Positions 4,331 through 17,253 of a DNA stretch of 64,000 nt are shown here, piece by piece. How positions within the stretch are numbered: position 1 is the stretch's first letter; every line of letters starts with the position of its first letter. Made by a program: the position numbers and the translations under genes. The notes beneath the pieces are model-generated. The model searched no databases, was not told the DNA's origin, and saw only the letters and a list, made by a program, of their open reading frames with translations. Source of the DNA: Rhodovulum kholense (GTDB lineage: Bacteria; Pseudomonadota; Alphaproteobacteria; Rhodobacterales; Rhodobacteraceae); contig NZ_QAYC01000004.1 of the NCBI RefSeq assembly GCF_003053725.1, positions 248,001 through 312,000 on the forward strand, read 5' to 3'.

Positions 4331-5305
4331 TCAGTCGCGGTCGAAGCGGCTGCCTTTGGTGATCGCCTCGCGCTCGGCCGCCCGTGCCTCGGCGCCCTCG
4401 CAGATCGGGCCGTAATCTCCAGGCTCGCGGTGCAGCGCGAAGTTGAAGATGTTCTTGCGCAGCTCGCTGCAGCGGTCGAGGTCGATCTCGGCGGTCACCA
4501 CCTCGTCGCCCCGGGTCTGGGCCATCGCCACGATCTCGCCCGTCGGGGCCACGATGCAGCTGCCGCCGATCAGTTCGCAACCTTCCTCGAGCCCGGCCTT
4601 GGCGGTGCCGATCACCCAGCAGCCATTGGCATAGGCCCCCGCCTGCAGGCTGAGATGGTTGTGGAAATCCTGCAGATGGTCGTGTTCGGGCGCCTGCGGA
4701 TAGTGCTGCGGCGTGTTGTAGCCCAGCATGACCAGTTCGGCGCCCCTCAGCGCCAGAACCCGGAAGGTTTCGGGCCAGCGGCGGTCGTTGCACAGGCACA
4801 TGCCCGCCTTGCCGCCCATGAAGTCGTAGACCGGAAAGCCCAGATCGCCATGTTCGAAATAGCGCTTTTCCAGGTGCTGAAAGCGGCGCCAGTCCTCGGG
4901 ATGGTAATGCCCCGGCAGGTGAACCTTGCGGTAGCGGCCCGCGATCCGGCCCTCGGGATCGACGAGGATCGAGGCGTTGAAGCGCCGCTTGACCCCGCCC
5001 TCTGTCAGCAGTTCGGCAAAGCCCAGATAGAACCCGATGCCCAGTCGCGCCGCGGCATCGAAAAGCGGCCGGGTATCGGCGTTCGGCATCTCGGTTTCAT
5101 AAAAGGCGTCGAGCGCGGCCTCGTCCTCGATCAGCCAGCGCGGAAAGAAGCTGGTCAGCGCCAGTTCGGGGAAGACGACGAGGCGGGCGCCGCGCCGGTG
5201 CGCCTCTTCCATCAGCGCCAGCATGCGCGCAACGGCCGAGCTGCGCGGCTCGGTCCGGGCGATGGGGCCCAGCTGGGCGGCGGCTGCGACGATCTTGCGG
5301 CTCAT
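4331..5305 (-). CDS. hyuC: N-carbamoyl-D-amino acid hydrolase (nitrilase superfamily)
   Basis: A 324-residue carbon-nitrogen hydrolase that would cut N-carbamoyl-D-amino acids to D-amino acid, CO2 and ammonia. The catalytic Glu-Lys-Cys triad falls at Glu47 (VVFPELALTSFFPRW), Lys127 (GRYRKVHLPGH) and Cys172 (GMCLCNDRRWPE), the numbering of the Agrobacterium D-carbamoylase. Family landmarks EGGVKRRFN, FQHLEKRYFEHGDLGFPVYD and RKNIFNFALHR are also present. It is the last gene of a minus-strand operon and overlaps the M20 carbamoylase gene by 4 bp. No hydantoinase accompanies it, so the substrate may not be a hydantoin product. D-specificity is family-based. Confidence 0.87.
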   Translation of the reverse strand: MSRKIVAAAAQLGPIARTEPRSSAVARMLALMEEAHRRGARLVVFPELALTSFFPRWLIEDEAALDAFYETEMPNADTRPLFDAAARLGIGFYLGFAELLTEGGVKRRFNASILVDPEGRIAGRYRKVHLPGHYHPEDWRRFQHLEKRYFEHGDLGFPVYDFMGGKAGMCLCNDRRWPETFRVLALRGAELVMLGYNTPQHYPQAPEHDHLQDFHNHLSLQAGAYANGCWVIGTAKAGLEEGCELIGGSCIVAPTGEIVAMAQTRGDEVVTAEIDLDRCSELRKNIFNFALHREPGDYGPICEGAEARAAEREAITKGSRFDRD

Positions 5306-6558
5306 TCGGTCTGTCCTTTCTGGTCGACCCGGCCCGCGCGGGCCAGCGCCACCTGCGCCAGCAGGCGGACGCCCGGCGCGATCTGCGCGGGCGCGGTGTA
5401 TTCGCGGATGTTGTGGCTGATGCCGTCTTGCGAGGGCACGAAGATCATCGCCGAGGGGCAGCGCGGCGCGAACATCTGCGCGTCATGGCCCGCCCCCGAG
5501 GGCATGCGCCGGTGTGTCAGCCCCAGCGCCGCGGCCCCCGCCTCGACGGCGTCGACCAGCGTTGCGTCGAAGGCCACCGGTTCGAACCGGGCCAGCGTGC
5601 GGCGCGACAGGCGGCAGCCCTCGGCGGCGGCGAAAGCCTCGGCTTGCGCGAAAAGACGGGCCTCGGCCGCTTGCAGCCGGGCCTCGTCGGTGTTGCGCAG
5701 ATCGACGGTCAGCACGGCGCGTTCGGGGATCACGTTGACCAGATCGGGTGTCAGCGCGATCCGGCCCACGGTCGCGACCTGCGGCGGACCGAACGCGTCG
5801 GCGATGGCCCGCGCCTCGGCCGCGATCCGCGCCGCCACCAGCCCCGCGTCATGGCGCAGCGCCATCGGCGTGGTGCCGGCATGGGCGGCCTGCCCCTCGA
5901 CCGTGATCTCGCTCCAGGAAATTCCCTGCACCCCGGTCACGACCCCGATGGCAAGCCCTTCGGCCTCAAGCACCGGGCCCTGCTCGATATGCAGCTCCAG
6001 ATAGGTGTCGGGTGCCAGCGCACCCACCGGGTGGGACCCGGCGGCGCCGATGGCTGCCAGCGCCTCGGCCACGCTGACCCCGTCGATCCCGACCTTGGCC
6101 AGCATCTCGTCCAGGTCGAGCCCGCCCTGCGCGACGCCCGATCCCATCATGTCGGGGGCGAAGCGCGCGCCTTCCTCATTGGTGAAGAAGGCCACGGCCA
6201 GCGGCCTTTCAGTCTCTATTCCGGCTTGGATCGCGCTTTCGATGACCTCGAGCCCGCCCAGAACGCCCAGCACCCCGTCATAGAGCCCGCCGGTCGCGAC
6301 CGTGTCGATATGCGAGCCCATCACCACCGGCGCGCCACCCGACCGCCCCGGCCGGATCGCCCAGCAATTGCCGATCACGTCGGTATGGACGTCAAGCCCG
6401 AGGTCGCGGAACCAGCCGGTGACCAGCGCGCGGCCCTCGGCATCCTCGGGGGTCAGGGCCAGCCGCTTGCAGCCGCCGCCGGGCAGGGCGCCGATCCGGC
6501 CCAGTGCGGCGATCCGGCCCATCAGCCGGTCGAGGTCGATCGTCAGGTCCGCTGTCAT
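5302..6558 (-). CDS. Zn-dependent N-carbamoyl-amino acid hydrolase (M20 amidase/carbamoylase family)
   Basis: A 418-residue hydantoinase/carbamoylase-type amidase of the M20 superfamily, the group of L-carbamoylases, beta-ureidopropionase and allantoate amidohydrolase. Metal ligands can be read in order: His in GSHIDTV, Asp in YDGVLGV, Glu in TNEEGARF, His in LELHIEQGP and His in GISHN. The dimerisation insert contains the family motif GQAAHAGTTPM. It removes a carbamoyl group in the cytoplasm, giving free amine, CO2 and ammonia. It overlaps both neighbours by 4 bp, so its substrate should feed the adjacent diaminopropionate lyase. Allantoate-like substrates cannot be excluded by sequence alone. 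Confidence 0.85.
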   Translation of the reverse strand: MTADLTIDLDRLMGRIAALGRIGALPGGGCKRLALTPEDAEGRALVTGWFRDLGLDVHTDVIGNCWAIRPGRSGGAPVVMGSHIDTVATGGLYDGVLGVLGGLEVIESAIQAGIETERPLAVAFFTNEEGARFAPDMMGSGVAQGGLDLDEMLAKVGIDGVSVAEALAAIGAAGSHPVGALAPDTYLELHIEQGPVLEAEGLAIGVVTGVQGISWSEITVEGQAAHAGTTPMALRHDAGLVAARIAAEARAIADAFGPPQVATVGRIALTPDLVNVIPERAVLTVDLRNTDEARLQAAEARLFAQAEAFAAAEGCRLSRRTLARFEPVAFDATLVDAVEAGAAALGLTHRRMPSGAGHDAQMFAPRCPSAMIFVPSQDGISHNIREYTAPAQIAPGVRLLAQVALARAGRVDQKGQTE

Positions 6559-7796
6559 GCCTCGGCCCTCACCTCGGCGGCCGGGCGCCCGGCCAGTTTC
6601 TCGTAAAGCGCGGGGTCGGTGTCGCCCTCGGTCCCGAAGAGCAGCACCCGCGAGTCCGGCCCCAGACCCAGCGCCGCCGCGGCCTCGGGGTTGGCGGCGG
6701 CAGCCATCAGCGCGGCCAGTCCTGCGACGGCGGATTCGCCCGCGACGATGGCCGGATCGCCCGGCAGGGGACGCGCGAGCCGCCGCATCATCGCCACCGC
6801 ATCCGCGTCCGCGACCGAGACCGCGGCAAAGGCCAGCGGCTTCAGCACCTCCCAGGCCAGAAGCGAGACCTCGCCGCAGGCAAGCCCCGCCATCAGCGTG
6901 TCGAGATCGCCGGTGACGGCGGTGGGCCTGCCCGCGCGGATCGTCTCGACCCAGCAGGCGGAGGCCTCGGGATCGGCCAGGATCGCCTTCGGCGCGGCCG
7001 CGCCATGGCGGCGGCGGAAATGGGCTGCCGCCGCCGCCGCGACGCCGCCGACGCCCGTTTGAACGAAGATATGGGTGGGGGCGGCACCAAGCTGGTCTGC
7101 GGCCTCGGCCGCCATCAGTTCATAGCCCTGCATCACGTCCTTCGGGACCTCGGTATAGCCCGGATAGGAGGTGTCAGAGACCACGAACCAACCCTCGCGG
7201 GTGGCGGTCTGCTGCGCCTCGCGGACGCTGTCGTCGTAATTTCCGGCACAGCGGCGGACCTCGGCGCCATAGGCTTCGATGGCGGCCTTGCGGCCCTCGG
7301 ACACGGTCGCGTGGATGAAGATCGTACAGCGGCAGCCGAACGTGCGCGCGCCCCAGGCGACCGACCGGCCGTGATTGCCGTCGGTAGCGCAGCAGACGGT
7401 GATGGCGGAGACGGTCGCGGCATGATCGCCCGCGAGGATCGCCTCTGCCGTCGGTTCGGCGATGCCCTCGCGGGCCGCGATCTCGCGCGCGAGAAGCCGC
7501 AGCACCGCATAGGCCCCGCCCAGTGCCTTGAAGCTGCCAAGCCCGAAGCGCCCGGCCTCGTCCTTGTAGTGAAGCCTGGCGATCCCGGCCTCGGCCGCAA
7601 GCCCGGGCAGGCTCAGCAGCGGCGTCGGCGCATAGCCAGGCCAGGCGGCGATGGTGGCGCGGGCGCGGGCGAAGGCGGCGTCGTTCAGAACGGCCTCTTG
7701 CGCGGGGCCGTAGCCGGGCGCGCAGTGAGGGTTCAGGACGATCTCGGTCCGGGCGCCCTGGCCCAGCGTGTTGGAGAAGGAAAGCGTCTGGGTCAT
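6555..7796 (-). CDS. dpaL: 2,3-diaminopropionate ammonia-lyase
   Basis: A 413-residue fold-type II PLP enzyme that converts 2,3-diaminopropionate to pyruvate and two ammonia. The PLP lysine is Lys90 in GLGSFKALGGAYAV. The phosphate-binding loop region TDGNHGRSVAWGA, the motif MAGLACGE and the closing stretch TEGDTDPALYEKLAG match E. coli YgeX closely. The start at 7796 has an AGGGG just upstream; an ATG four codons earlier (7808) is also possible. Its stop overlaps the M20 carbamoylase start by 4 bp, and the ABC permease lies just upstream. Pairing this lyase with two carbamoylases is the notable point of the operon. Confidence 0.9.
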   Translation of the reverse strand: MTQTLSFSNTLGQGARTEIVLNPHCAPGYGPAQEAVLNDAAFARARATIAAWPGYAPTPLLSLPGLAAEAGIARLHYKDEAGRFGLGSFKALGGAYAVLRLLAREIAAREGIAEPTAEAILAGDHAATVSAITVCCATDGNHGRSVAWGARTFGCRCTIFIHATVSEGRKAAIEAYGAEVRRCAGNYDDSVREAQQTATREGWFVVSDTSYPGYTEVPKDVMQGYELMAAEAADQLGAAPTHIFVQTGVGGVAAAAAAHFRRRHGAAAPKAILADPEASACWVETIRAGRPTAVTGDLDTLMAGLACGEVSLLAWEVLKPLAFAAVSVADADAVAMMRRLARPLPGDPAIVAGESAVAGLAALMAAAANPEAAAALGLGPDSRVLLFGTEGDTDPALYEKLAGRPAAEVRAEA

Positions 7797-7810
7797 GGTC
7801 CCCTGCATGG

Positions 7811-8584
7811 TCAGTTGAGCCGCCCCGCGCGGTGGCGGATCGCCTCGGCGATCACCACGAGGGCGATGTTGCCCAGCACGATCAGCACGGCGAGCGCGTT
7901 GAGGCTGGGAGAAAGGTCGAAGCGGAAATCGGACGCCACCAGCACCGACAGCGCCTGCTGGCGGCCCGACAGGAACGCGGTCAGCACGTATTCCGACGAG
8001 GACAGCACGAAGGCGATGACCCAGGCGGCCATCAGCCCGTTGCCCATCAGCGGCAGCACCACCCGGCGAAAGCTGCACCAGCCCGAGGCGCCCAGATCGG
8101 CGGCGGCCTCGATCAGGCGGCGGTCGATGCGGATCAGGACCGAGGCGACGATGACCGTGGTGAAGGGCAGGATGATGACCGACTGCCCCGCGATCACTGT
8201 CAGGAGCGAGCGCGACACGCCCAGTTCCTTGAAGAGGATCAGTTGCGCCACGGCAAGGATCAGCCGCGGCACCAGGAAGGGCAGCAGCAGAAGCGCCGCG
8301 AAGAGCACGCGGAAGCGGGTGGCGTAGAAGGTCAGGGCCAGTGCCGCTGCGGCGCCCAGAAGGGTGGTCAGCAGCGCCACCGGAAAGGCCACCGCCAGCG
8401 TGGTCAGGAAGCCGCCTCCCAGACGGCCGTCGCCGAGGATCTCGGCAAACCACTGGCCGGTGACGCCGGTCAGCGGAAAGGCCATGACATCCGAGGCATT
8501 GACCGAGAAGAGCGCGATCATGGCGATCGGCAGATACATGAAGCCGAAGACGAGGCAGACCCAGAGCGTTCCGAGACGGGACAT
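7811..8584 (-). CDS. Polyamine-type ABC transporter permease (PotC/PotI-like)
   Basis: A 257-residue inner-membrane permease with six predicted helices, beginning LGTLWVCLVFGFMYLPIAMIALFSVNASD, as in PotC. The coupling EAA loop is visible as EAAADLGASGWCSFRRVVLP. Its start abuts the stop of the companion permease with no gap. It forms the channel of a PotABCD-type importer whose substrates are usually polyamines, cationic amino acids or opines. The lyase gene in the same operon suggests a diamino acid or its carbamoyl derivative, which is inference. Confidence 0.9.
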   Translation of the reverse strand: MSRLGTLWVCLVFGFMYLPIAMIALFSVNASDVMAFPLTGVTGQWFAEILGDGRLGGGFLTTLAVAFPVALLTTLLGAAAALALTFYATRFRVLFAALLLLPFLVPRLILAVAQLILFKELGVSRSLLTVIAGQSVIILPFTTVIVASVLIRIDRRLIEAAADLGASGWCSFRRVVLPLMGNGLMAAWVIAFVLSSSEYVLTAFLSGRQQALSVLVASDFRFDLSPSLNALAVLIVLGNIALVVIAEAIRHRAGRLN

Positions 8585-9445
8585 TCAGGCGCCCTCCGCC
8601 ACGAGGCTCGACCGCCGGATCAGGGTGGCGCCCGCGCCGAAGCACAGCATCAGGATCGCCAGCATGGTCCAGGCGATGGCCGAGCCCAGCGGCCAGTCGA
8701 AGGCGGTGCCAAAGAGGTCGTTGATGGCCGAGATCACGGTCACGCCCGAGGCCCCGCCCAGAAGCTGCGGCGTCAGATAGTCGCCCACCACCATCACGAA
8801 GACCATCAGCCCGCCCGCGATCAGCCCGGGCGCGGTCAGCGGCAGCGTCACCCGCCGAAATCGGTCCCGCCCGGGGGCGCCCAGGTCGGCTGCGGCCTCC
8901 AGCCAGGCGTCGTCGAGGCTTTCGAAGGCCAGCCACAGCCCGATCACCATGAAGGGCAGGTAGTTGTAGGTCAGCGCGATATGGGTGGCGAGCGGGCTGA
9001 ACAGCAGCCCCTGCAGCGGCGCGTCGATGGCGCCAAGCCAAATCAGGCTGCGGTTGATCGCGCCCTCGGCGCCCAGCAGCACCCGCCAGGCGAAGATGCG
9101 CAGCAGGTCCCCGGAATAAAGCGGCACCAGCAAGAGCGTCAGCAGCATGGTCTTGGCCGCGCCCGCCCGCTTGGCCAGGAACCAGGCGACGGGATAGCCG
9201 ATCACGGCGGTGATCGCGGCAACCAGCAGCCCCGATCCGAAGGCACGCGCGATCAGCCCGCGATAGGTCTCGGACTGCAGGATGCGGGCGTAGTTCTTCA
9301 GGCTCGGATCGTGCGAGATTGTGACGAAATCGACCGAGAAGAAGGAATAGGCAAAGAGGATCGCAAGCGGCGCGAGGCAAAGCGCACCCAGCGCCGCGAC
9401 CACGGGCAGGGCCAGCCAGTTTCCGGCGGATTGCGGGCGCATCAT
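8585..9445 (-). CDS. Polyamine-type ABC transporter permease (PotB/PotH-like)
   Basis: A 286-residue permease with about six helices. It opens with a helix (LPVVAALGALCLAPLAILFA) and a periplasmic loop containing TISHDPSLKNYARI, as in PotB. The EAA coupling loop reads EAAADLGAPGRDRFRRVTLP. The ATG at 9445 overlaps the stop of the ATPase gene as ATGA, which sets the start; a longer upstream reading would run into the ATPase gene. It pairs with the following permease to make the heterodimeric channel. Confidence 0.9.
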   Translation of the reverse strand: MMRPQSAGNWLALPVVAALGALCLAPLAILFAYSFFSVDFVTISHDPSLKNYARILQSETYRGLIARAFGSGLLVAAITAVIGYPVAWFLAKRAGAAKTMLLTLLLVPLYSGDLLRIFAWRVLLGAEGAINRSLIWLGAIDAPLQGLLFSPLATHIALTYNYLPFMVIGLWLAFESLDDAWLEAAADLGAPGRDRFRRVTLPLTAPGLIAGGLMVFVMVVGDYLTPQLLGGASGVTVISAINDLFGTAFDWPLGSAIAWTMLAILMLCFGAGATLIRRSSLVAEGA

Positions 9446-10524
9446 GCGGCCTCCCGCGCGATCCAGACCCGGTCGGGGTCGAAGGACAGCCGCACCGTCT
9501 CGCCCGGGGCGGGGGGCGGCCCGGCATGGGCAACCTGAAAGAGCTGCCCGCCCGCCACGCATTCCAGAAGCCAGTCGGCGCCGCGATAGACCGCGTGGGT
9601 CACTTCGGCGGGCGTGCCGGTGTCCCCCAGCGCCACCTGTTCTGACCGCAGGCACAGCACCGCCCGCGCCCCCACGCTCAGCCCGGCCACCCCGGGCACG
9701 ACATGCCGACCCAGCGCGGTCTCGATGGCATAACCCTTGCCGGCGGGACCGAGGATCCGCCCCGGCAGGCAGGAGGCGCCGCCGATGAAATCGGCCACAT
9801 AGGCGGTGGCGGGGCGGGTGTAGATGTCGCCCGGCGCGCCCTGCTGTTCGATCCGGCCGTCGCGCATCACGACGATCCGGTCCGACAGGGCAAAGGCCTC
9901 TTCCTGGTCGTGGGTCACATGCAGGAAGGTCATGCCCAGCCGCCGTTGCAGGTCCTTCAGCTCGATCTGCATGTCCTTGCGCATCCGGCGGTCGAGCGCC
10001 GACAGCGGCTCGTCCAGCAACAGAAGCCGCGGTTCGTTGACGATGGCGCGGGCTAGCGCCACGCGCTGTTGCTGGCCGCCCGACAGCTGGCGCGGCCGCC
10101 GGTCGGCCATGGCCTCCATCCGGACGGTCGCCAGCGCCTCGCGGGCGCGGGCCTTGATCCTGTCCTTGGGGACCGCCCGATAGCTGAGCCCGAAGGCCAC
10201 GTTTTCCAGAACCGACAGATGCGGGAACAGCGCGTAGCTTTGAAAGACGGTGTTGATCGGACGCCGGTTCGCGGGCAGATCGTCCAGCCGCATCCCGTCC
10301 AGCATCAGCGTGCCCGATCCGATGGCCTCGAAGCCCCCGACCATGCGCAGGAGCGTGGTCTTGCCGCAGCCCGAGGGCCCCAGCAGGGTCACATAGCTTT
10401 CATTGGCCAGCGACAGGTCGATCCCCCGCACCGCCTGAACGGACCCGTAGGACTTGTGCAGCGCGATGACCTCCAGCAGCGGGCGCGTCCGGCGCCCGGC
10501 TGCGGTTTTTGCGGCAACAGCCAT
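9442..10524 (-). CDS. Polyamine-type ABC transporter ATP-binding protein (PotA-like)
   Basis: A 360-residue ATPase: Walker A GPSGCGKTTLL, Q-loop in NTVFQSYALFPHLSV, signature LSGGQQQRVALARA, Walker B LLLLDEPLSALD and the H-loop in FLHVTHDQEEA. The C-terminal 120 residues form a TOBE_2 domain, typical of the Pot/Fbp/Mal group. The start at 10524 comes 2 bp after the binding-protein stop; an open frame extends upstream but only overlaps that gene. It energises import on the cytoplasmic side of the membrane. Confidence 0.92.
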   Translation of the reverse strand: MAVAAKTAAGRRTRPLLEVIALHKSYGSVQAVRGIDLSLANESYVTLLGPSGCGKTTLLRMVGGFEAIGSGTLMLDGMRLDDLPANRRPINTVFQSYALFPHLSVLENVAFGLSYRAVPKDRIKARAREALATVRMEAMADRRPRQLSGGQQQRVALARAIVNEPRLLLLDEPLSALDRRMRKDMQIELKDLQRRLGMTFLHVTHDQEEAFALSDRIVVMRDGRIEQQGAPGDIYTRPATAYVADFIGGASCLPGRILGPAGKGYAIETALGRHVVPGVAGLSVGARAVLCLRSEQVALGDTGTPAEVTHAVYRGADWLLECVAGGQLFQVAHAGPPPAPGETVRLSFDPDRVWIAREAA

Positions 10525-10526
10525 TC

Positions 10527-11594
10527 TCAGCTGGCCTTCACTTCGTTCCAGAGGGCGACCCAGTCGCCATAGCGGGGCGGGTTCTGCTTCCAGACAAAGC
10601 TGTCCATCACCGACAGGTCCTTGACGAAGATCTTGTCCTGCTGCTCGTCGCTCAGCAGGTCGCGCGCGGCCGAGGTCGATTGCGCATAGGGGCCGCCCAC
10701 CGCCAGCATCTTGCCGTAATCGGGGCCCAGCAGGTAGTCGACCAGCGCGAAGGCCGCGTCGAGCCGCGCGCCCTCGACGCCCTTCGGTACCGCGATGGTA
10801 TCGCACCAGCCGATGACGCCTTCCTTCGGCTTGGCCATGCCCATGTCGATGCCCTTGGCGCGAAGCTCGTAATAGGGCGGCACCCAGGAGAAGGCGCAAA
10901 CCACCTCGCCGGTGGCAAAGAGGTTGGTCAGGTCGCCGATCGAGTTCCAGTAGGTGCGGAGCTTCGATTTCTGGATCTTCAGAACCTTCTTCACCTCGGC
11001 CAGCTGGCGGTCGTCCATGGTGAACATCTCGGATTCGGGGATGCCCAGATACATCGCCGCGATCATGATGCCTTCCAGCGCATAGTCGCGCATCGCCAGC
11101 TTGCCGTTATAGGCGTCGCCCTCGAAGAAGACCGACCAGTCGGGCTCGGCTTCCATCAGATCGGCGCGGTAGACGATGGGGTTGATGCCCCAATAGAACG
11201 GGATGCCGTAGGTCTGTCCGTCGACCTTGCCCAGCGGCGTCTGCTTGAAGGTGTCGTAAAGCTTGGCGGCGTTCGGCACCCTGGCAAAGTCGATGGGCTG
11301 CAGCAGGTCCGAGGCGGTGTAATATTCCACCTTGTCGAGCCCGGGCGTGATCAGGTCGACGGAATCGGCGCCGCCCGCGCGCAGCTTGGCGAACTGTTCG
11401 TCATCGGTGCCGATGAAGGTCTTGGTCAGGGAGATGTCGTTGGCGGCGATGAACGGGGCGAGGTAGTCGTCCTTGGCGAGGTTCTCCCAGGTCATCCACA
11501 GGATGCCGGTGGCGGCATCGGCCCGGAAAGCGGGACCGAAGGCGCCGAGCGCCGTCCCGGCCAGGGCCGTCTTCAGAAGGTCTCTGCGGTTCAT
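10527..11594 (-). CDS. ABC transporter substrate-binding protein, PotD/PotF family
   Basis: A 355-residue periplasmic binding protein and the first gene of the operon. The N-terminus MNRRDLLKTALAG with a hydrophobic stretch and an A-x-A site near ADAATG suggests Tat export. Typical PotD/F features follow: ILWMTWENL at the start of the mature part, YGIPFYWGINPIVYRADL in the hinge region and FALVDYLLGPDYG near the end. It should capture the operon's substrate, probably a cationic diamine or amino-acid derivative. A 255-bp regulatory gap separates it from the divergent RpiR gene. Confidence 0.88.
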   Translation of the reverse strand: MNRRDLLKTALAGTALGAFGPAFRADAATGILWMTWENLAKDDYLAPFIAANDISLTKTFIGTDDEQFAKLRAGGADSVDLITPGLDKVEYYTASDLLQPIDFARVPNAAKLYDTFKQTPLGKVDGQTYGIPFYWGINPIVYRADLMEAEPDWSVFFEGDAYNGKLAMRDYALEGIMIAAMYLGIPESEMFTMDDRQLAEVKKVLKIQKSKLRTYWNSIGDLTNLFATGEVVCAFSWVPPYYELRAKGIDMGMAKPKEGVIGWCDTIAVPKGVEGARLDAAFALVDYLLGPDYGKMLAVGGPYAQSTSAARDLLSDEQQDKIFVKDLSVMDSFVWKQNPPRYGDWVALWNEVKAS

Positions 11595-11654
11595 GCGGTG
11601 TCCTTTCGTAGCGGAACGGGAAGGGGCAGGCCGTCCTGGCGTCAGACTGGAAAT

Positions 11655-11668
11655 GAAAATGAATTTTC
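11655..11668. promoter_or_regulatory. Candidate RpiR operator (GAAAAT-GA-ATTTTC)
   Basis: An exact 6-bp inverted repeat, GAAAATGAATTTTC, sits 61 bp before the binding-protein start, in an AT-rich patch that continues as GCAAAATATAAAATAG. The patch stands out against the GC-rich surroundings and would hold the divergent promoters. RpiR-family regulators often bind such AAAT/ATTT palindromes. The rest of the 255-bp gap shows no gene. Confidence 0.45.
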
Positions 11669-11849
11669 GCAAAATATAAAATAGAGAAACTATGATTTCA
11701 TCCCTCATCTGCCGCACGAATGGGCGTCTCGCATCGGGATGCGCCTCGAAATCAAGCGCAAGATGTTTGCCGGGCCGTCCGGACAGGAGCGCCAGAGGTG
11801 GAGTGAAAACAGATTTGCGCCTGAGTCGGTTCTGTGAAAACGTCGCGCC

Positions 11850-12749
11850 ATGACCATGCCCGGCGCGCAAATGGAAGACGGGGCCGAACCGGCCGGATCG
11901 CTGCTCAAGCGGATCCACCGGGCCTATGACGGCCTGCCGGGGGGCGAACGCAAGGTGGCCGACGCGATCCTGTCGGCGCCGCACGAAATGGCGGTCTGGA
12001 CCGCCTCGGAGCTGGCAGCGCAGGCGGGCGTGTCGAACGCCACGGTCAGCCGGATCGTGCAGCGGCTTGGCTATCGCAATTTCGAAAGCGCCCGGCTCGA
12101 TGCGCGCAAGCTGCGCGAGACCGGCTCGCCCCTGTTCATGACCGAAGAGACCGAGCCGGGGCAGGAGGGGCGACCCTTTGCCCGTCTGATCCGGGCCGAG
12201 GCCGACCTGATCGAGGCGACGCTGACACGGGTCGATCCGGCGCTGCTGCGCGAGGCGGCCGGGGCTTTGGGTCAGGCGCGGCGGGTGCGGGTCATGGGCT
12301 TTCGCAACAGCCGGTTTCTGGCCGACTACCTGACAGCCCAGCTGGCCCAGATCCGGCCCGATGTCGCGCCGCTGCTTCTTGATGGGCAGACCGCGGCCGA
12401 GGGTATTGCCGGGCTCGGCCCCGAGGATGTGGCAGTGATCGTCGGGCTCAGGCGGCGCCCGGCGCGGTTCTCGCGGCTGGTGCAGGCGGTGGCCGCGCGC
12501 GGCGCGCGGGTGCTGCTGGTCTGCGATGCCAGCCTGCGCGGCGCCCCGGCCCATGCCGTCTGGACCTTCACCTGCGCGGTGGAAACCCGCACGCCGCGCG
12601 ATTCCTATGCGGGCGCGCTGGCGCTGATGCGGCTTCTGGCGACGGACTGCGCTGCTGCGCTGGGCGAGGCGGGCCTTTCGTACCTGAACGAGGTCGAGAC
12701 CCTGCGCGAGGATCTCGACGAGCTGGAACTGTCCGACCCGGGCACCTGA
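11850..12749 (+). CDS. RpiR/MurR family transcriptional regulator
   Basis: A 299-residue regulator with an N-terminal RpiR helix-turn-helix (SELAAQAGVSNATVSRIVQR, about residues 52-71) and a C-terminal SIS domain from about residue 125 (ARRVRVMGFRNSRFLADYL). SIS domains bind phosphosugars or other small metabolites. It is divergent from the carbamoylase/diaminopropionate operon with a shared AT-rich gap, which is the usual place for the operon's own regulator. Whether it represses or activates, and with what ligand, is not visible. It ends 6 bp before the convergent aldehyde dehydrogenase gene. Confidence 0.88.
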   Translation: MTMPGAQMEDGAEPAGSLLKRIHRAYDGLPGGERKVADAILSAPHEMAVWTASELAAQAGVSNATVSRIVQRLGYRNFESARLDARKLRETGSPLFMTEETEPGQEGRPFARLIRAEADLIEATLTRVDPALLREAAGALGQARRVRVMGFRNSRFLADYLTAQLAQIRPDVAPLLLDGQTAAEGIAGLGPEDVAVIVGLRRRPARFSRLVQAVAARGARVLLVCDASLRGAPAHAVWTFTCAVETRTPRDSYAGALALMRLLATDCAAALGEAGLSYLNEVETLREDLDELELSDPGT

Positions 12750-12755
12750 GCCGCC

Positions 12756-14264
12756 TCAGATGTCGAAGACGACGCCCTGGGCCAGCGGCAGCTCGCGCGA
12801 ATAGTTGATGGTGTTGGTGGCGCGGCGCATGTAGCCCTTCCAGGCGTCCGACCCGCTTTCGCGCCCGCCGCCGGTTTCCTTCTCGCCACCGAAGGCCCCG
12901 CCGATCTCGGCGCCCGACGTGCCGATATTGACGTTGGCGATGCCGCAATCGGACCCGCGGGCCGACAGGAACAGCTCCATCTCGCGCAGATCGGTGGTGA
13001 AGATCGAGGACGACAGCCCGGCGCCCACCGCGTTATGCGCCTCGATCGCCGCGTCGAGGTCGCTGTATTTCATCACGTAGAGGATGGGCGCGAAGGTTTC
13101 TTCCAGAACCGGGCCGGTCTGGTCGGGCATCTCGACCAGCGCGGGGCGGGCGTAGAAGGCGGTGTCGGGGCCGATGGCCACGCGCTCGCCGCCATGAACG
13201 GTTCCGCCCGCCGCGCGCGCGGCTTCCAGCGCGGACTGCATCGCCCGATAGGCGGCGCCGTCGATCAGGGGCCCGACCAGCGCCGCGGTCTCCAGCGGGT
13301 TGCCGACGGTGACCGAGCCATAGGCCCGGATCAGGCCGGGCACGAGCGTGTCATAGACATCCTCATGCACGAAAAGCCGCCGCATCGTGGTGCAGCGCTG
13401 CCCGGCCGTGCCCATCGCCCCAAAGGCCACCGCCCTCAGCGCCATGTCGAGATCGGCCGAGGGGCAGACGATGCCCGCATTGTTGCCCCCCAGTTCCAGG
13501 ATCGCGCGGCCGAAGCGGGCGGCCACCTTCGGCCCGACGATCCGCCCCATCCGGGTCGAGCCGGTTGCCGAGACCAGCGCCACATCGGGGCTGTCGACCA
13601 GCGCCGCGCCGACCTCGGCGCCGCCGATCAGCACCTGTGCCAGCCCCTCGGGCGCCTCGCCGAACCGTGCAAGCGCGCGGTCGAGGATCGCCATCGAGGC
13701 CAGCGCGGTCAGCGGGGTCTTTTCCGAGGGTTTCCAGATCACCGGATCGCCGCAGACCAGCGCCAGCGCCGTGTTCCAGGACCAGACCGCGACCGGAAAG
13801 TTGAAGGCCGAGATCACGCCGACCACCCCCAGCGGGTGCCAGGTTTCCATCATCCGGTGGCCGGGGCGCTCGGTCGCGATGGTCAGCCCGTAAAGCTGGC
13901 GCGAGAGGCCCACCGCGAAATCGCAGATGTCGATCATCTCCTGCACCTCGCCCGCGCCTTCCGAGGGGCTCTTGCCCGCCTCGATCGACACCAGACGGCC
14001 AAGCTCGGCCTTGGCCGCGCGCAATTCCTCGCCGAAAAGCCGGATCAGTTCGCCCCGCCTGGGCGCGGGCACCATGCGCCAGACCCGGAAGGCCGCCTTG
14101 GCGCGGGCGATGGCGGCGGCGGCCTCGTCTGCGGTCGCGGGTGCGGGATCGGCAATCGCTTCGCCGGTGATGGGCGAAAAGCTGGCCATGCCGCCGCCGG
14201 TAAAGGCGCCGCGCGCGACGCCAAGCTGTGCCAGAAGCGCGTCGGTTTCGGTTTTCAGGGTCAT
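12756..14264 (-). CDS. amaB: Aldehyde dehydrogenase, ALDH7/AmaB-like (piperidine-6-carboxylate/aminoadipate semialdehyde dehydrogenase)
   Basis: A 502-residue NAD(P)-dependent aldehyde dehydrogenase. The Rossmann-region motif PLGVVGVISAFNFPVAVWSW, catalytic Glu in LELGGNNAGI and catalytic Cys in GQRCTTMRR are typical of ALDH7. The C-terminal substrate-site stretch NVNIGTSGAEIGGAFGGEK is the antiquitin/AmaB hallmark. It would oxidise alpha-aminoadipate semialdehyde (or its cyclic form, piperidine-6-carboxylate) to alpha-aminoadipate in lysine catabolism. The start at 14264 has AAGGA at good spacing. A flavin oxidase two genes upstream could make the imine. Substrate is inferred from family and context. 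Confidence 0.8.
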   Translation of the reverse strand: MTLKTETDALLAQLGVARGAFTGGGMASFSPITGEAIADPAPATADEAAAAIARAKAAFRVWRMVPAPRRGELIRLFGEELRAAKAELGRLVSIEAGKSPSEGAGEVQEMIDICDFAVGLSRQLYGLTIATERPGHRMMETWHPLGVVGVISAFNFPVAVWSWNTALALVCGDPVIWKPSEKTPLTALASMAILDRALARFGEAPEGLAQVLIGGAEVGAALVDSPDVALVSATGSTRMGRIVGPKVAARFGRAILELGGNNAGIVCPSADLDMALRAVAFGAMGTAGQRCTTMRRLFVHEDVYDTLVPGLIRAYGSVTVGNPLETAALVGPLIDGAAYRAMQSALEAARAAGGTVHGGERVAIGPDTAFYARPALVEMPDQTGPVLEETFAPILYVMKYSDLDAAIEAHNAVGAGLSSSIFTTDLREMELFLSARGSDCGIANVNIGTSGAEIGGAFGGEKETGGGRESGSDAWKGYMRRATNTINYSRELPLAQGVVFDI

Positions 14265-14322
14265 TTGCGATCCTTCCTGCTGGGCTTGGGCCAAGGCCCC
14301 GGACCGGGGCACCGGGCCGGGC

Positions 14323-15744
14323 CTATTCGACGACATAGACAAGGGCGGTCATCGCCAGGGCGAGCGACATGGCGACCAGCGTGAAGCCCCGGTTGACCCT
14401 GAACGTCACATGATGGGGCGGGCGGTTCAATTGCCGACCGGTGATGATCGACATGGCCGAGATCGGCGAGGCCGAGATCGCCAGCGCCCAGGCCAGGCAC
14501 AGCGCAAGCCCCAGCGCATAGGGGTGCTGGGCGCCGACCGGGCTGGCGCCGAACAGTTGCGCGGCCATCACCATGACGATGGAATGGGGGATCATCAGCG
14601 CGCCCGCGGCCGGGATCGCCAGCAGACAGGCGAGGATCACCGCAAGCGGCGGCAGGGACCCGCGCTCGATCAGCGCGTTGATGCCCATCGCCTGCGCCCC
14701 TTGGGCGACTGCCGCGCCGATCACGGCGGCGGCCAGGAAAATGGTGCTTTCGGTCGCCATGCCCTCGGAGGCGGCCGAGACGCGGGCCAGCGTGCCGCCG
14801 CCGGATCGGGGCAGGCCGCGCTCGATCCGGGGCCAGATCACGGCCAGAAGCGGCAGCACGATGCAGGCGGCAACGAGGAAGCTGATGTCCAGCAGGCGGT
14901 GCAGGAGGATCGTCACCGCCACCAGACCCGCCACGGCCGCCAGCACCGCGACCAGCGCGGCGGCCGATCCGGGCGGAGGGGCCTCGGCTGCCTGACCCGA
15001 CGGCGCGGGGGCCTTCCGCGCGTCGAGAAGCGCGGTGCTGACCGCGATGGTCAGGGCCGCGGCCAGGGCCAGCGCCAGGAACAGCACCGGGTCGAGCGTG
15101 GGGATCGAACTGGTGACGATGGCAAAGCCCAGCCCGATGGGCGACCAGACCGTCATCATCAGCGTGCCGCGCAGCGCGGCCAGCGTCATCGCCCCGGTGT
15201 CGATCCGCCGCCGCCCCTCGGCCGCGCGGCGGGCATCGTGATCGGCTGCGATATCCGAGATCATGCCGATGGTGCCGATATTGAACAGCACCGAAATGGC
15301 TTGCGCGCCCAGACTGACCGCGAGGATCCGCACCCGCGCGGTATGGGCAAACAGCGCCTCGGCCGCCCGTCCGATGGCCTTCGAGCCGCGCACCGGCGCC
15401 CGGATCAGCGCCAGCGCCGTCAGGAAAGCCGAAAAGGCCGTGCCCTGCATCAGCGCGTGCCGCATTGCGGGCATCGCCTCGGGCAGCGCCATCGCCACCA
15501 GCGCGACCGACAGTGCGGCGGCGGCAAGAAAGATCCGCGCGATCCGCGACACCCGGTCCAGCCGCAACAGCGCCAGCGCCACCGCCGCGATGGCCGCGAT
15601 GTCCAGAAGCGCGCCCGCGCCGGTCAGCCGTCCGCTGGCAAGCGTCCCCGCGATCAGCGCAGACAGCAGCAGGATCGAGAGGCTCCCCGCGGCGCGGGAC
15701 AGAAGTTGGGGCGGGACCTGATGGGTCAGGTGCAGGCTTGGCAT
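14323..15744 (-). CDS. Polytopic membrane protein, possible transporter
   Basis: A 473-residue hydrophobic protein with roughly 11-13 predicted helices, beginning after a short polar N-terminus with LSILLLSALIAGTLASG. A conserved-looking loop, FNIGTIGMISDI, and the segment ISASPISAMSIITGRQLNRPP near the C-terminus resemble the re-entrant serine/glycine loops of ion-transporter-superfamily carriers, but I cannot place the family. It lies between the flavin oxidase and the aldehyde dehydrogenase on the same strand, so it may import or export their substrate (for instance pipecolate or lysine). That role is inference from position only. Confidence 0.6.
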   Translation of the reverse strand: MPSLHLTHQVPPQLLSRAAGSLSILLLSALIAGTLASGRLTGAGALLDIAAIAAVALALLRLDRVSRIARIFLAAAALSVALVAMALPEAMPAMRHALMQGTAFSAFLTALALIRAPVRGSKAIGRAAEALFAHTARVRILAVSLGAQAISVLFNIGTIGMISDIAADHDARRAAEGRRRIDTGAMTLAALRGTLMMTVWSPIGLGFAIVTSSIPTLDPVLFLALALAAALTIAVSTALLDARKAPAPSGQAAEAPPPGSAAALVAVLAAVAGLVAVTILLHRLLDISFLVAACIVLPLLAVIWPRIERGLPRSGGGTLARVSAASEGMATESTIFLAAAVIGAAVAQGAQAMGINALIERGSLPPLAVILACLLAIPAAGALMIPHSIVMVMAAQLFGASPVGAQHPYALGLALCLAWALAISASPISAMSIITGRQLNRPPHHVTFRVNRGFTLVAMSLALAMTALVYVVE

Positions 15745-15756
15745 GTCTGGGTCTCG

Positions 15757-17043
15757 TCAGTGGTCGGATAGAAGGTGCAGGGCCATGGCCCCGGCGCGGA
15801 AGACCAGCTCGCGCCCCCGGCGAAGCGGCGCGGGCGCGAGCCTCGAGACGGGCAGCGGCATCGCCTCGAGCGGCAGATCGCCCGCGACATGGGCGGCGAT
15901 GGCCTTGCCGAAGACGGTGCCGGGCGCAATGCCCCGGCCGTTATAGCCAGCCATGGCGATTGCATTCTCGCCCGGCAGGTGCAGGCGTGGCAGGTGATCG
16001 CCGGTCATGCCGATCCAGCCGAACCAGTGCGTTGCAAAGCCGATGCCCCTCAGCTGCGGAAAGATCCGGTGCATGGCGCGCAGCGCCCAGGCGCGATGGA
16101 CCGCGAAATCGGGCGTGGCAAGCTGCCCGACCGACCCGAAGACCAGCCGCCCGGCGGCATCGAGCCGGAACGAGGACAGCACCTGCCGCGTATCCCAGCA
16201 GCCCTCGCCCCCCGGCAGGATCGTCGCGCGGATCTCGGGCGGCAGGGGCGGCGTTGCCATGTTGAAATAGGGCAGTCCCACCTGTTCGCGGCGCAGCCCG
16301 GCCGCGACCTGCCGGGTATAGACGTCGGTCGCCAGCACCAGCCATTTCGCGCGGACCTGCCCGGACGGGCTTCGGGCCACCCAGTCGCCCCCCTCGCGGA
16401 CAATTCCGGTCGCCGGGCTTCGGGCATGGATCGCCGCGCCTGCGGCCATTGCGGCCCGGGCGAGCGCGCGCGCATAGGCCAGCGGCTGCACCGTGCCCGC
16501 GCGCCGGTCCCAAAGCGCCCCGGCATAGGACCCGCCGCCGATCCGGTGGTACGCCTCGGCGGCATCCAGCAGCTCGACGGGGGCGCCGCGTGCGCGCCAT
16601 TGCCGGGCGCGCTCGGTCAGCTCTGCCAGCCCGGCCGCGCCGACCCCGCAATGCAGCGTGCCGTTCCGCACCGCCTCGCAGGCGATCCCGTGCCGCGCGA
16701 TCAGGGCAAAGACCTCGGCCGGGGCGGACCCCAGAAGCTCCAGCAGCCGGGGGCCGTAGAGGGGACCCAGCGCCTTCGGCATCTGGTCGGGCAGGGTCCA
16801 CATCCCGGCATTGACCAGCCCGACATTCCGGCCCGAGGCGCCAAAGCCGACCTCTGCCGCCTCAAGCACCACGGCCCGCAGGCCCGCCTCGGCCAGATGC
16901 AGCGCGGCCGACAGCCCGGTATAGCCCGCGCCGACGATGACGCAATCGGCCTCGGCGGGCCCTGTCAGCGGGGGCGTGTCCGCCAAGGCGAGCGCGGGTG
17001 CGGTCTCTTGCCAAAGGCCATGGGAACGGGGGTCGTTCAGCAT
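15757..17043 (-). CDS. FAD-dependent oxidoreductase, DAO family (AmaA-like pipecolate oxidase candidate)
   Basis: A 428-residue flavoprotein with an N-terminal dinucleotide fold (VIVGAGYTGLSAALHLAEAG, about residue 35), the FAD-contact segment GASGRNVGLVNAG and the C-terminal flavin motif AGYNGRGIAPGTVFG. Members oxidise secondary or primary amines of amino acids to imines with oxygen or quinone. With AmaB-like ALDH downstream, the likely reaction is L-pipecolate to piperidine-6-carboxylate, as in Pseudomonas amaAB, but other N-containing substrates are possible. The start at MLNDPRSHGLW is chosen because the upstream open stretch is Arg/Ala-rich and not conserved-looking. It is the first gene of its operon. 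Confidence 0.72.
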   Translation of the reverse strand: MLNDPRSHGLWQETAPALALADTPPLTGPAEADCVIVGAGYTGLSAALHLAEAGLRAVVLEAAEVGFGASGRNVGLVNAGMWTLPDQMPKALGPLYGPRLLELLGSAPAEVFALIARHGIACEAVRNGTLHCGVGAAGLAELTERARQWRARGAPVELLDAAEAYHRIGGGSYAGALWDRRAGTVQPLAYARALARAAMAAGAAIHARSPATGIVREGGDWVARSPSGQVRAKWLVLATDVYTRQVAAGLRREQVGLPYFNMATPPLPPEIRATILPGGEGCWDTRQVLSSFRLDAAGRLVFGSVGQLATPDFAVHRAWALRAMHRIFPQLRGIGFATHWFGWIGMTGDHLPRLHLPGENAIAMAGYNGRGIAPGTVFGKAIAAHVAGDLPLEAMPLPVSRLAPAPLRRGRELVFRAGAMALHLLSDH

Positions 17044-17253
17044 CTCGGGCTCCGGTCGAACGGCGCGGCGGGCAACCTCGTCCCCTCCGACATGCCCCAG
17101 CCGCGCGCGCGTTGCCAGTGCCGGATGCGCCAGAAGCGGCTTTGTCGCCGATCCGGGCCGGTGCCGCTCCGGCATGCGCCGGGTCGGCTTTCCGTTGACA
17201 GCGGCGCCCGGCGGGCGGTCCTATCGCGGGGATTGCCCGCAGGGAGACCCCGC

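Follow-up and report, generated by a model that had tools for sequence, protein, structure and literature searches.

The stretch of DNA analysed here, a window of 64,000 nucleotides from a contig of the alphaproteobacterium Rhodovulum kholense, contains an operon in which the gene for DpaL, a protein of the 2,3-diaminopropionate (DAP) ammonia-lyase family, stands together with the genes of two unrelated carbamoylase-family hydrolases. The open reading frames of the window confirm the existence of this seven-gene operon, which runs on the minus strand from 11594 to 4331 and encodes, in the order of transcription, the PotD-, PotA-, PotB- and PotC-type components of an importer, DpaL, an M20-type enzyme and a nitrilase-type enzyme (Table 1). 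Its junctions range from 4-base overlaps to a 2-base gap, and the gap at the dpaL junction becomes 14 bases if the second ATG is the start. The Pfam domains that score above their cut-offs in the operon are CN_hydrolase, Peptidase_M20, PALP, BPD_transp_1 (twice), ABC_tran and SBP_bac_8. The sequence-only reading of this DNA had described seven packed genes for an importer, DpaL and two non-homologous hydrolases of carbamoylase families, and the open reading frames, Pfam and the curated models all agree with it. The divergent regulator gene and the two palindromes listed in Table 1 were absent from that reading. Its further statement that there is no hydantoinase holds for the window operon, the host having one elsewhere in its genome, but not for three related loci described below.

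Table 1. Features of the dpaL operon and of the adjoining upstream region in the window
Feature	Position	Strand	Evidence
PotD-type solute-binding protein	10527..11594	-	SBP_bac_8; PotD model 76.4 bits, cut-off 582
PotA-type ABC ATPase	9442..10524	-	ABC_tran and TOBE_2; best model PotA, below cut-off
PotB-type permease	8585..9445	-	profile models, Pfam
PotC-type permease	7811..8584	-	profile models, Pfam
DpaL (2,3-diaminopropionate ammonia-lyase family)	6555..7808	-	NF006058 480.9, cut-off 276; K94, D143, D212
M20 hydantoinase/carbamoylase-family hydrolase	5302..6558	-	TIGR01879 401.5, cut-off 204; at most 333 bits to solved carbamoylases
Nitrilase-superfamily D-carbamoylase (N-carbamoyl-D-amino-acid hydrolase type)	4331..5305	-	446 bits to 2ggk; E47, K127, C172
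Divergent RpiR/MurR-type regulator	11850..12749	+	HTH_6 and SIS
Predicted operator 1, TGAAA-N6-TTTCA, 1 mismatch	11654..11669	.	pattern match; recurs in relatives
Predicted operator 2, TGAAA-N6-TTTCA, 1 mismatch	11685..11700	.	start 31 bases beyond operator 1

The three enzymes of the operon

DpaL passes both NF006058 and TIGR01747 (288.5, cut-off 274), and the residues listed in Table 1 align with K77, D120 and D189 of the E. coli enzyme DpaL/YgeX (4d9g), which we take to be the pyridoxal-phosphate lysine and the two aspartates that serve the D and the L isomer. The two proteins are thus alike in family and in catalytic residues; they differ in that the window protein stays under the cut-off of TIGR03528 (320.6 vs 532.25). 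YgeX is equally active on both DAP isomers according to Li et al. (PMC12507026).

For the nitrilase-type protein, the best solved matches are N-carbamoyl-D-amino-acid hydrolases (1fo6, 2ggk), with a full-length match over 303 residues to 2ggk. Its residues E47, K127 and C172, presumably the Glu-Lys-Cys catalytic triad, are invariant in an alignment of six sequences that includes the window's. The D-carbamoylase family is known chiefly for its industrial biocatalysts, and the window enzyme differs from the 1fo6/2ggk type in its genomic company, which is DpaL and M20 rather than a hydantoinase, and in its position on DpaL-linked branches of the family tree. The host genome has this single close D-carbamoylase, the next matches being 30-32% identical. 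An assignment as N-carbamoylputrescine amidase (AguB) was rejected, as the score with TIGR03381 is far below the cut-off (114.5 vs 410.25).

The M20 protein passes the hydantoinase/carbamoylase model TIGR01879, and it has no close relative among the solved family members 3n5f and 8apz (L-carbamoylases) and 8c46 (N-carbamoyl-beta-alanine amidohydrolase), with which it scores 268-333 bits: Since the beta type reaches 333 bits and the L-carbamoylases 305 (8apz) and 268 bits, kinship is indecisive on specificity. It is also distinct from the host's other M20 paralogue on contig C5, which is 43% identical to it, reaches 756-808 bits with 8c46, 8aq0 and 8apz, and adjoins a dihydropyrimidinase homologue, probably in a pyrimidine cluster. 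Given the maximum of 333 bits for the operon enzyme, the two belong to different subfamilies. We therefore rejected the idea that the operon M20 is the pyrimidine-type beta-ureidopropionase of the host, a role that the C5 paralogue would fit instead.

Recurrence of the trio and its genomic surroundings

Searched with a DpaL alignment, public genome contigs gave at least 592 relatives, and the counts of the trio (DpaL, M20 and D-carbamoylase) rest on the best 80 loci (L051-L130) alone; the Seohaeicola stretch, which appears both as L037 and as L130, was counted once. The trio is present within 9-10 kb of DpaL in 41 of these 80 loci. The others comprise 11 loci with the D-carbamoylase but without M20, six with M20 alone and 22 with neither, or five and 23 for the last two classes if M20 is required within 4 kb; in three M20-only loci (L096, L114, L118) a contig edge lies inside M20, and in two of the loci with neither (L087, L110) the contig ends within 1.1 kb past DpaL. 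In all 41 trios the genes share one strand and follow the order DpaL, M20, D-carbamoylase; the matched stretches are separated by a median of 30 and 46 bases, and only in L079 and L080 is an importer inserted between M20 and the D-carbamoylase. Judging from the organism names, we take the trio loci to come from alpha-, beta- and gammaproteobacteria. The sequence-only reading had called for a neighbourhood survey of whether dpaL co-occurs with both carbamoylase families elsewhere, and in these loci the two unrelated carbamoylase-family enzymes do recur with DpaL as a unit.

Moreover, DpaL, M20 and the D-carbamoylase have correlated pairwise distances (r = 0.79, 0.77 and 0.80 over 42 trios, with none of 2000 permutations as high). 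The set consisted of the 38 of the 41 trios without internal stops together with L031, of which M20 was aligned only partly, L032, L034 and the window. This shows co-inheritance of the three genes, inflated by common descent. In a DpaL tree of 89 rows built with a quick method, the trio label requires 13 changes compared to 29.9 upon shuffling, and the rows nearest to the window are Tropicimonas (L051; 76% identical), which has the same arrangement of trio and Pot-type importer, L032 from the same bacterial family, with a trio and a TRAP importer, and Octadecabacter (L053). Among 20 stretches of this family, taken as the best DpaL matches of 198 genomes, four contain the trio (L031, L032, L034, L037) and two DpaL with the D-carbamoylase (L035, L038); no D-carbamoylase showed up in the others, of which L049 and L050 are without gene calls.

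The D-carbamoylases show the same association from their own side. In a tree of 111 rows (FastTree, with some long branches), the 65 DpaL-linked enzymes require 7 changes compared to 35.4 upon shuffling. At the threshold used, 33 of the 198 family genomes have a D-carbamoylase, and in 30 D-carbamoylase loci of the family, DpaL lies within 1.5 kb in six, including the window, and a hydantoinase in seven. A hydantoinase is present in 22 of the 33 D-carbamoylase genomes and in 13 of the 165 others (Fisher p = 1.4e-12), a co-occurrence to which we give little weight because many such D-carbamoylases adjoin hydantoinases and not DpaL. In the stretches L174 and L175, which are without DpaL, an M20 gene (42-43%) lies directly 5' of the D-carbamoylase, and this might be another D/L carbamoylase pair.

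Several relatives carry additional enzymes in the cluster. A D-hydantoinase is encoded 3' of PotC in Seohaeicola (L130; TIGR02033 516.5, cut-off 393.25) and after the trio in a Phyllobacteriaceae bin (L106; 550.3), while Marinicella (L115) has the Seohaeicola arrangement with a shorter match that stays below the cut-off (369.5). In two Roseibium loci (L066, L069), a hydantoinase lies about 8 kb away (529.1 in L066), and a gene of the Asp/Glu/hydantoin-racemase family directly follows the D-carbamoylase. A homologue of YgeY is found beside eight trios, and the two that were tested (L068, L079) exceed NF009555 (409.2 and 368.8 vs 321). D-aminoacylase-family genes accompany six of the trios and also occur at one D-carbamoylase-only locus and at three further loci; the relative in L117 is close to the solved D-aminoacylase (542.6 bits), and in L104, with the order TRAP, DpaL, M20, D-aminoacylase-like protein, RpiR, a distant member takes the place of the D-carbamoylase, with a score that narrowly misses the Pfam cut-off (29.3 vs 29.7). 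These additions of D-hydantoinase, YgeY homologue and D-aminoacylase tie the cluster to the published chemistry of ureido derivatives of DAP (ureido-DAP).

The importer, in contrast to the enzymes, is exchanged between loci: At most 10 kb from the 41 trios, we found Pot-type (4), TRAP (9), His-type ABC (9), Dpp-type (5) and MFS (6) transporters, in classes that overlap and with counts that depend on the query sequences. In the window, neither PotA (375.8 vs 482) nor PotD reaches the cut-off of the respective equivalog model. Four other trio loci encode orthologues of the window's binding protein with 69-89% identity. In the alignment, the pocket positions that we take to be ligands of the polyamine retain three tryptophans and two acidic residues but differ at one tyrosine and at a further acidic residue. 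This hints, weakly, at a free-amine compound rather than a polyamine as the possible ligand.

An RpiR-type gene accompanies the trio in particular, lying within 10 kb in 33 of the 41 trios, in none of the 11 D-carbamoylase-only loci, in two of the five M20-only loci and in one of the 23 others. When the gap between operon and regulator in the window is aligned with those of L051 and L053, GAAAATTCATTTTC is invariant. Among 36 loci selected because they contain both trio and regulator, 21 have the exact palindrome TGAAA-N6-TTTCA, which occurs only once in the 412,336 bases of 22 trio-less DpaL loci. If one mismatch is allowed, 33 of 39 loci have a site within about 400 bases 5' of the regulator gene (exact in 19), and the density of such sites is correspondingly uneven, with 54 matches in about 17,900 upstream bases and 21 in the rest of 800,316 bases; for L034 the other of its two regulators was used, so that its two sites were counted as outside. 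The two sites of the window compare with 0.24 expected in 64 kb, and two sites were reached in 1 of 100 shuffles. In the whole host genome, the pattern matches at 34 places with at most one mismatch and its reversed version at 10, which suggests that other regulators may use similar sites. Two such sites, C5:100046 and C5:100135, lie 89 bases apart on host contig C5 and are perhaps another RpiR-type operator.

DpaL also occurs in other surroundings. A different type of DpaL operon is seen in L041-L044, from the same family: Next to DpaL stand two genes, about 390 and 250 codons long, that recur in these loci and in L041 encode an M24 creatinase-type and an arylmalonate-decarboxylase-like protein. 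DpaL proteins of the Roseomonas type have neither carbamoylase within 10 kb (L088, L091, L093, L097, L099, L108, L116, L121, L129); TctC-like genes are found around most of them and amidase genes around some.

A putative pathway for ureido-diaminopropionate and its alternatives

The chemistry that leads to DpaL is known from reductive urate breakdown, which yields 2,3-diureidopropionate. According to Li et al. (PMC12507026), the 2-ureido group is removed by YgeW in a phosphorolysis or by UacY of C. difficile in a hydrolysis, the 3-ureido group is removed by YgeY, and albizziin is converted to pyruvate by YgeY and YgeX. According to a commentary (PMC12990295), Liu et al. (Nature Microbiology 2025) have YgeW cutting the 3-ureido group instead; the commentary regards the order of ureido cleavage as open and notes that the R configuration has been proposed. 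The clusters for this route (xdhD-ygfM-ygfK-ssnA-hyuA-ygeW-yqeA-ygeY-ygeX in E. coli and the UacX/UacY variant in C. difficile) likewise end with carbamoyl removal and DpaL/YgeX, and in the C. difficile variant the 2-ureido group is removed by hydrolysis (PMC12507026), as is proposed here. In the window, by contrast, the D-carbamoylase and the hydantoinase/carbamoylase-family M20 would carry out the carbamoyl steps, and an importer is part of the operon. The pathway suggested by the sequence-only reading is supported in part, by the recurring carbamoylase-DpaL unit and by the literature, where both of its intermediates, albizziin and 2,3-diureidopropionate, precede the DpaL step (PMC12507026). 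It is right in kind but uncertain in detail, and the 2025 papers anticipate some of it: UacY of C. difficile already provides a hydrolytic counterpart (PMC12507026), and the lack of a hydantoinase does not extend to L106, L115 and L130.

We propose, with a probability of roughly 0.47, that the operon is a regulated catabolic operon for N-carbamoylated DAP. The ureido-DAP taken up by the importer would most likely be 3-amino-2-ureidopropionate or something closely related; the D-carbamoylase, judging from its family, would strip the 2-ureido group of the D form to give D-DAP; M20 would remove the carbamoyl group that is out of reach for the D-carbamoylase, and a 3-ureido group is a somewhat less likely target here than the 2-ureido group of the L form; and DpaL would convert DAP to pyruvate and ammonia, acting on both enantiomers as reported for its E. 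coli relative. The RpiR-type regulator is predicted to control the operon at the TGAAA-N6-TTTCA palindromes. What the sequences show is the gene content, the recurring trio with its order, the exchange of importers, the palindromes and three reductive-urate enzymes that stay below their cut-offs in the host; the enzyme activities, the substrate and the inducer are inferred. The proposal is supported by the recurrence of the trio, the correlated distances, the kinship of the D-carbamoylase and its DpaL-linked branches, the hydantoinase, YgeY and D-aminoacylase neighbours, the published chemistry and, for the regulation, the sites 5' of the regulator gene.

The role of M20 divides this proposal from the one made initially, in which 2,3-diureidopropionate loses its 2-ureido group to the D-carbamoylase and its 3-ureido group to M20 before DpaL acts, making the operon a hydrolytic lower half of urate breakdown. 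We regard this as rather unlikely, even though the published route must remove both ureido groups, by YgeW or UacY and by YgeY (PMC12507026), N-carbamoyl-beta-alanine amidohydrolase is among the two best solved matches of M20, and in L104 the distant D-aminoacylase-like protein stands where the D-carbamoylase would. The beta-type kinship is neutral in view of the similar score with 8apz, and the polyamine-type importer would suit a free-amine ligand better than diureidopropionate, with the reservation that importers differ elsewhere. Three observations favour slightly, as weak evidence, an L/D pair with M20 as the L partner. YgeY homologues accompany M20 in eight trios, which would be a redundancy if the 3-ureido group were the target of both; this argument no longer holds should YgeY attack the 2-ureido group. 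The M20 step is dispensable, since 12 of 12 genomes with DpaL and D-carbamoylase without adjoining M20, several of them metagenome bins, have only M20 paralogues of at most 47% identity. Finally, 4 of the 11 D-carbamoylase-only loci and none of the 41 trios have a racemase-family gene within 10 kb (Fisher p = 0.0012), a weak count that amounts to about one event because adjacency is confined to the two Roseibium loci. In the same comparison, PF01425 amidases, which could replace M20 for the 3-ureido group, are found in 3 of the 11 M20-less loci and in none of the 41 trios (p = 0.0075), but also in 7 of the 23 loci with neither enzyme.

It is quite unlikely that the operon serves a general scavenging, in which a D/L pair would process N-carbamoyl amino acids that stem from hydantoins and the substrates of DpaL would be other amino acids, for example serine analogues. 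The D-carbamoylase family does occur beside hydantoinases and racemase-family genes as well, and D-aminoacylase relatives lie by 6 of the 41 trios; yet the DpaL-linked D-carbamoylases form branches of their own, DpaL keeps the residues of a diaminopropionate enzyme, and no amino-acid oxidase or dehydrogenase is among the 10 annotated of 25 recurring neighbour families. Very improbable, finally, is an action of the nitrilase-type enzyme and M20 on other, acyl or peptide-like amides of DAP: Both superfamilies contain other amidases and Dpp-type importers lie by 5 of the 41 trios, but the closest solved relatives of both enzymes include carbamoyl hydrolases, and hydantoinases join the cluster in some relatives.

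Several points weigh against the proposed ureido-DAP operon. Neither carbamoylase is close by in 23 of the 80 DpaL loci, and four of these genes (L052, L055, L056, L060) fall into the window's part of the tree; their annotated neighbours look unrelated. The same D-carbamoylase family serves hydantoinase loci too. The operator motif was derived from three loci that were then included in the counts. Further points concern the L/D pair: The ureido group that YgeY attacks is disputed in the literature (PMC12990295), and the YgeY homologues of L068 and L079 stay below TIGR03526 (231.9 and 231.8 vs 321.5). Outside the two Roseibium loci, the racemase-family gene is not adjacent to the D-carbamoylase: In L057 and L095 it lies 6-9 kb away on the opposite strand. 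Moreover, M20 as an L-carbamoylase would leave the window operon without an enzyme for the 3-ureido group.

In a wider version, which we consider rather unlikely, the operon would represent a widespread aerobic scavenging of ureido-DAP or the corresponding hydantoins, with stereo-complementary, non-homologous carbamoylases, a stereo-indifferent lyase and an RpiR-type regulator and operator of its own, and leakage from anaerobic urate degraders perhaps as the source. It is undescribed in the literature searched, which omits most subscription papers and in which no D-carbamoylase was found alongside DpaL or diaminopropionate. If correct, reductive urate breakdown would have a lower half that stands alone, with different enzymes, in aerobic soil and marine bacteria, and the anaerobic and aerobic cycling of purine nitrogen may thus be linked by cross-feeding. 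One branch of the D-carbamoylases would gain a natural role, and the stereochemistry and order of ureido cleavage, as raised in the commentary (PMC12990295), would become testable with these enzymes.

Host genome and neighbouring genes

Three enzymes of reductive urate breakdown remain below their cut-offs in the host genome: SsnA (best 108.9 vs 455.5), YgfK (254.2 vs 835.3) and YgeY (131.1 vs 321, NF009555), each of which exceeds its cut-off in 1 of 14 control genomes. We therefore rejected a full reductive urate set in this host (XdhD, YgeW, UacX and UacY were not searched), and the window operon would accordingly be a scavenging lower half.

On host contig C16, TRAP genes and a D-hydantoinase form a cassette with an adjoining GntR-type regulator (C16:58968-63300; L165 8969-13301). 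Its D-hydantoinase is 63% identical to that of Seohaeicola, and a site with at most one mismatch to the predicted operator, which would suggest joint control with the window operon, is absent from C16:58968-63300.

Next to the regulator gene in the window, a minus-strand gene at 12756-14342 encodes an L-piperidine-6-carboxylate dehydrogenase (803.4, cut-off 730), and another at 15757-17175, also on the minus strand, a pipecolate-oxidase-like protein (419.9 vs 600), with a protein without a Pfam match encoded between them. This gene group (12756-17175) probably serves lysine/pipecolate catabolism.

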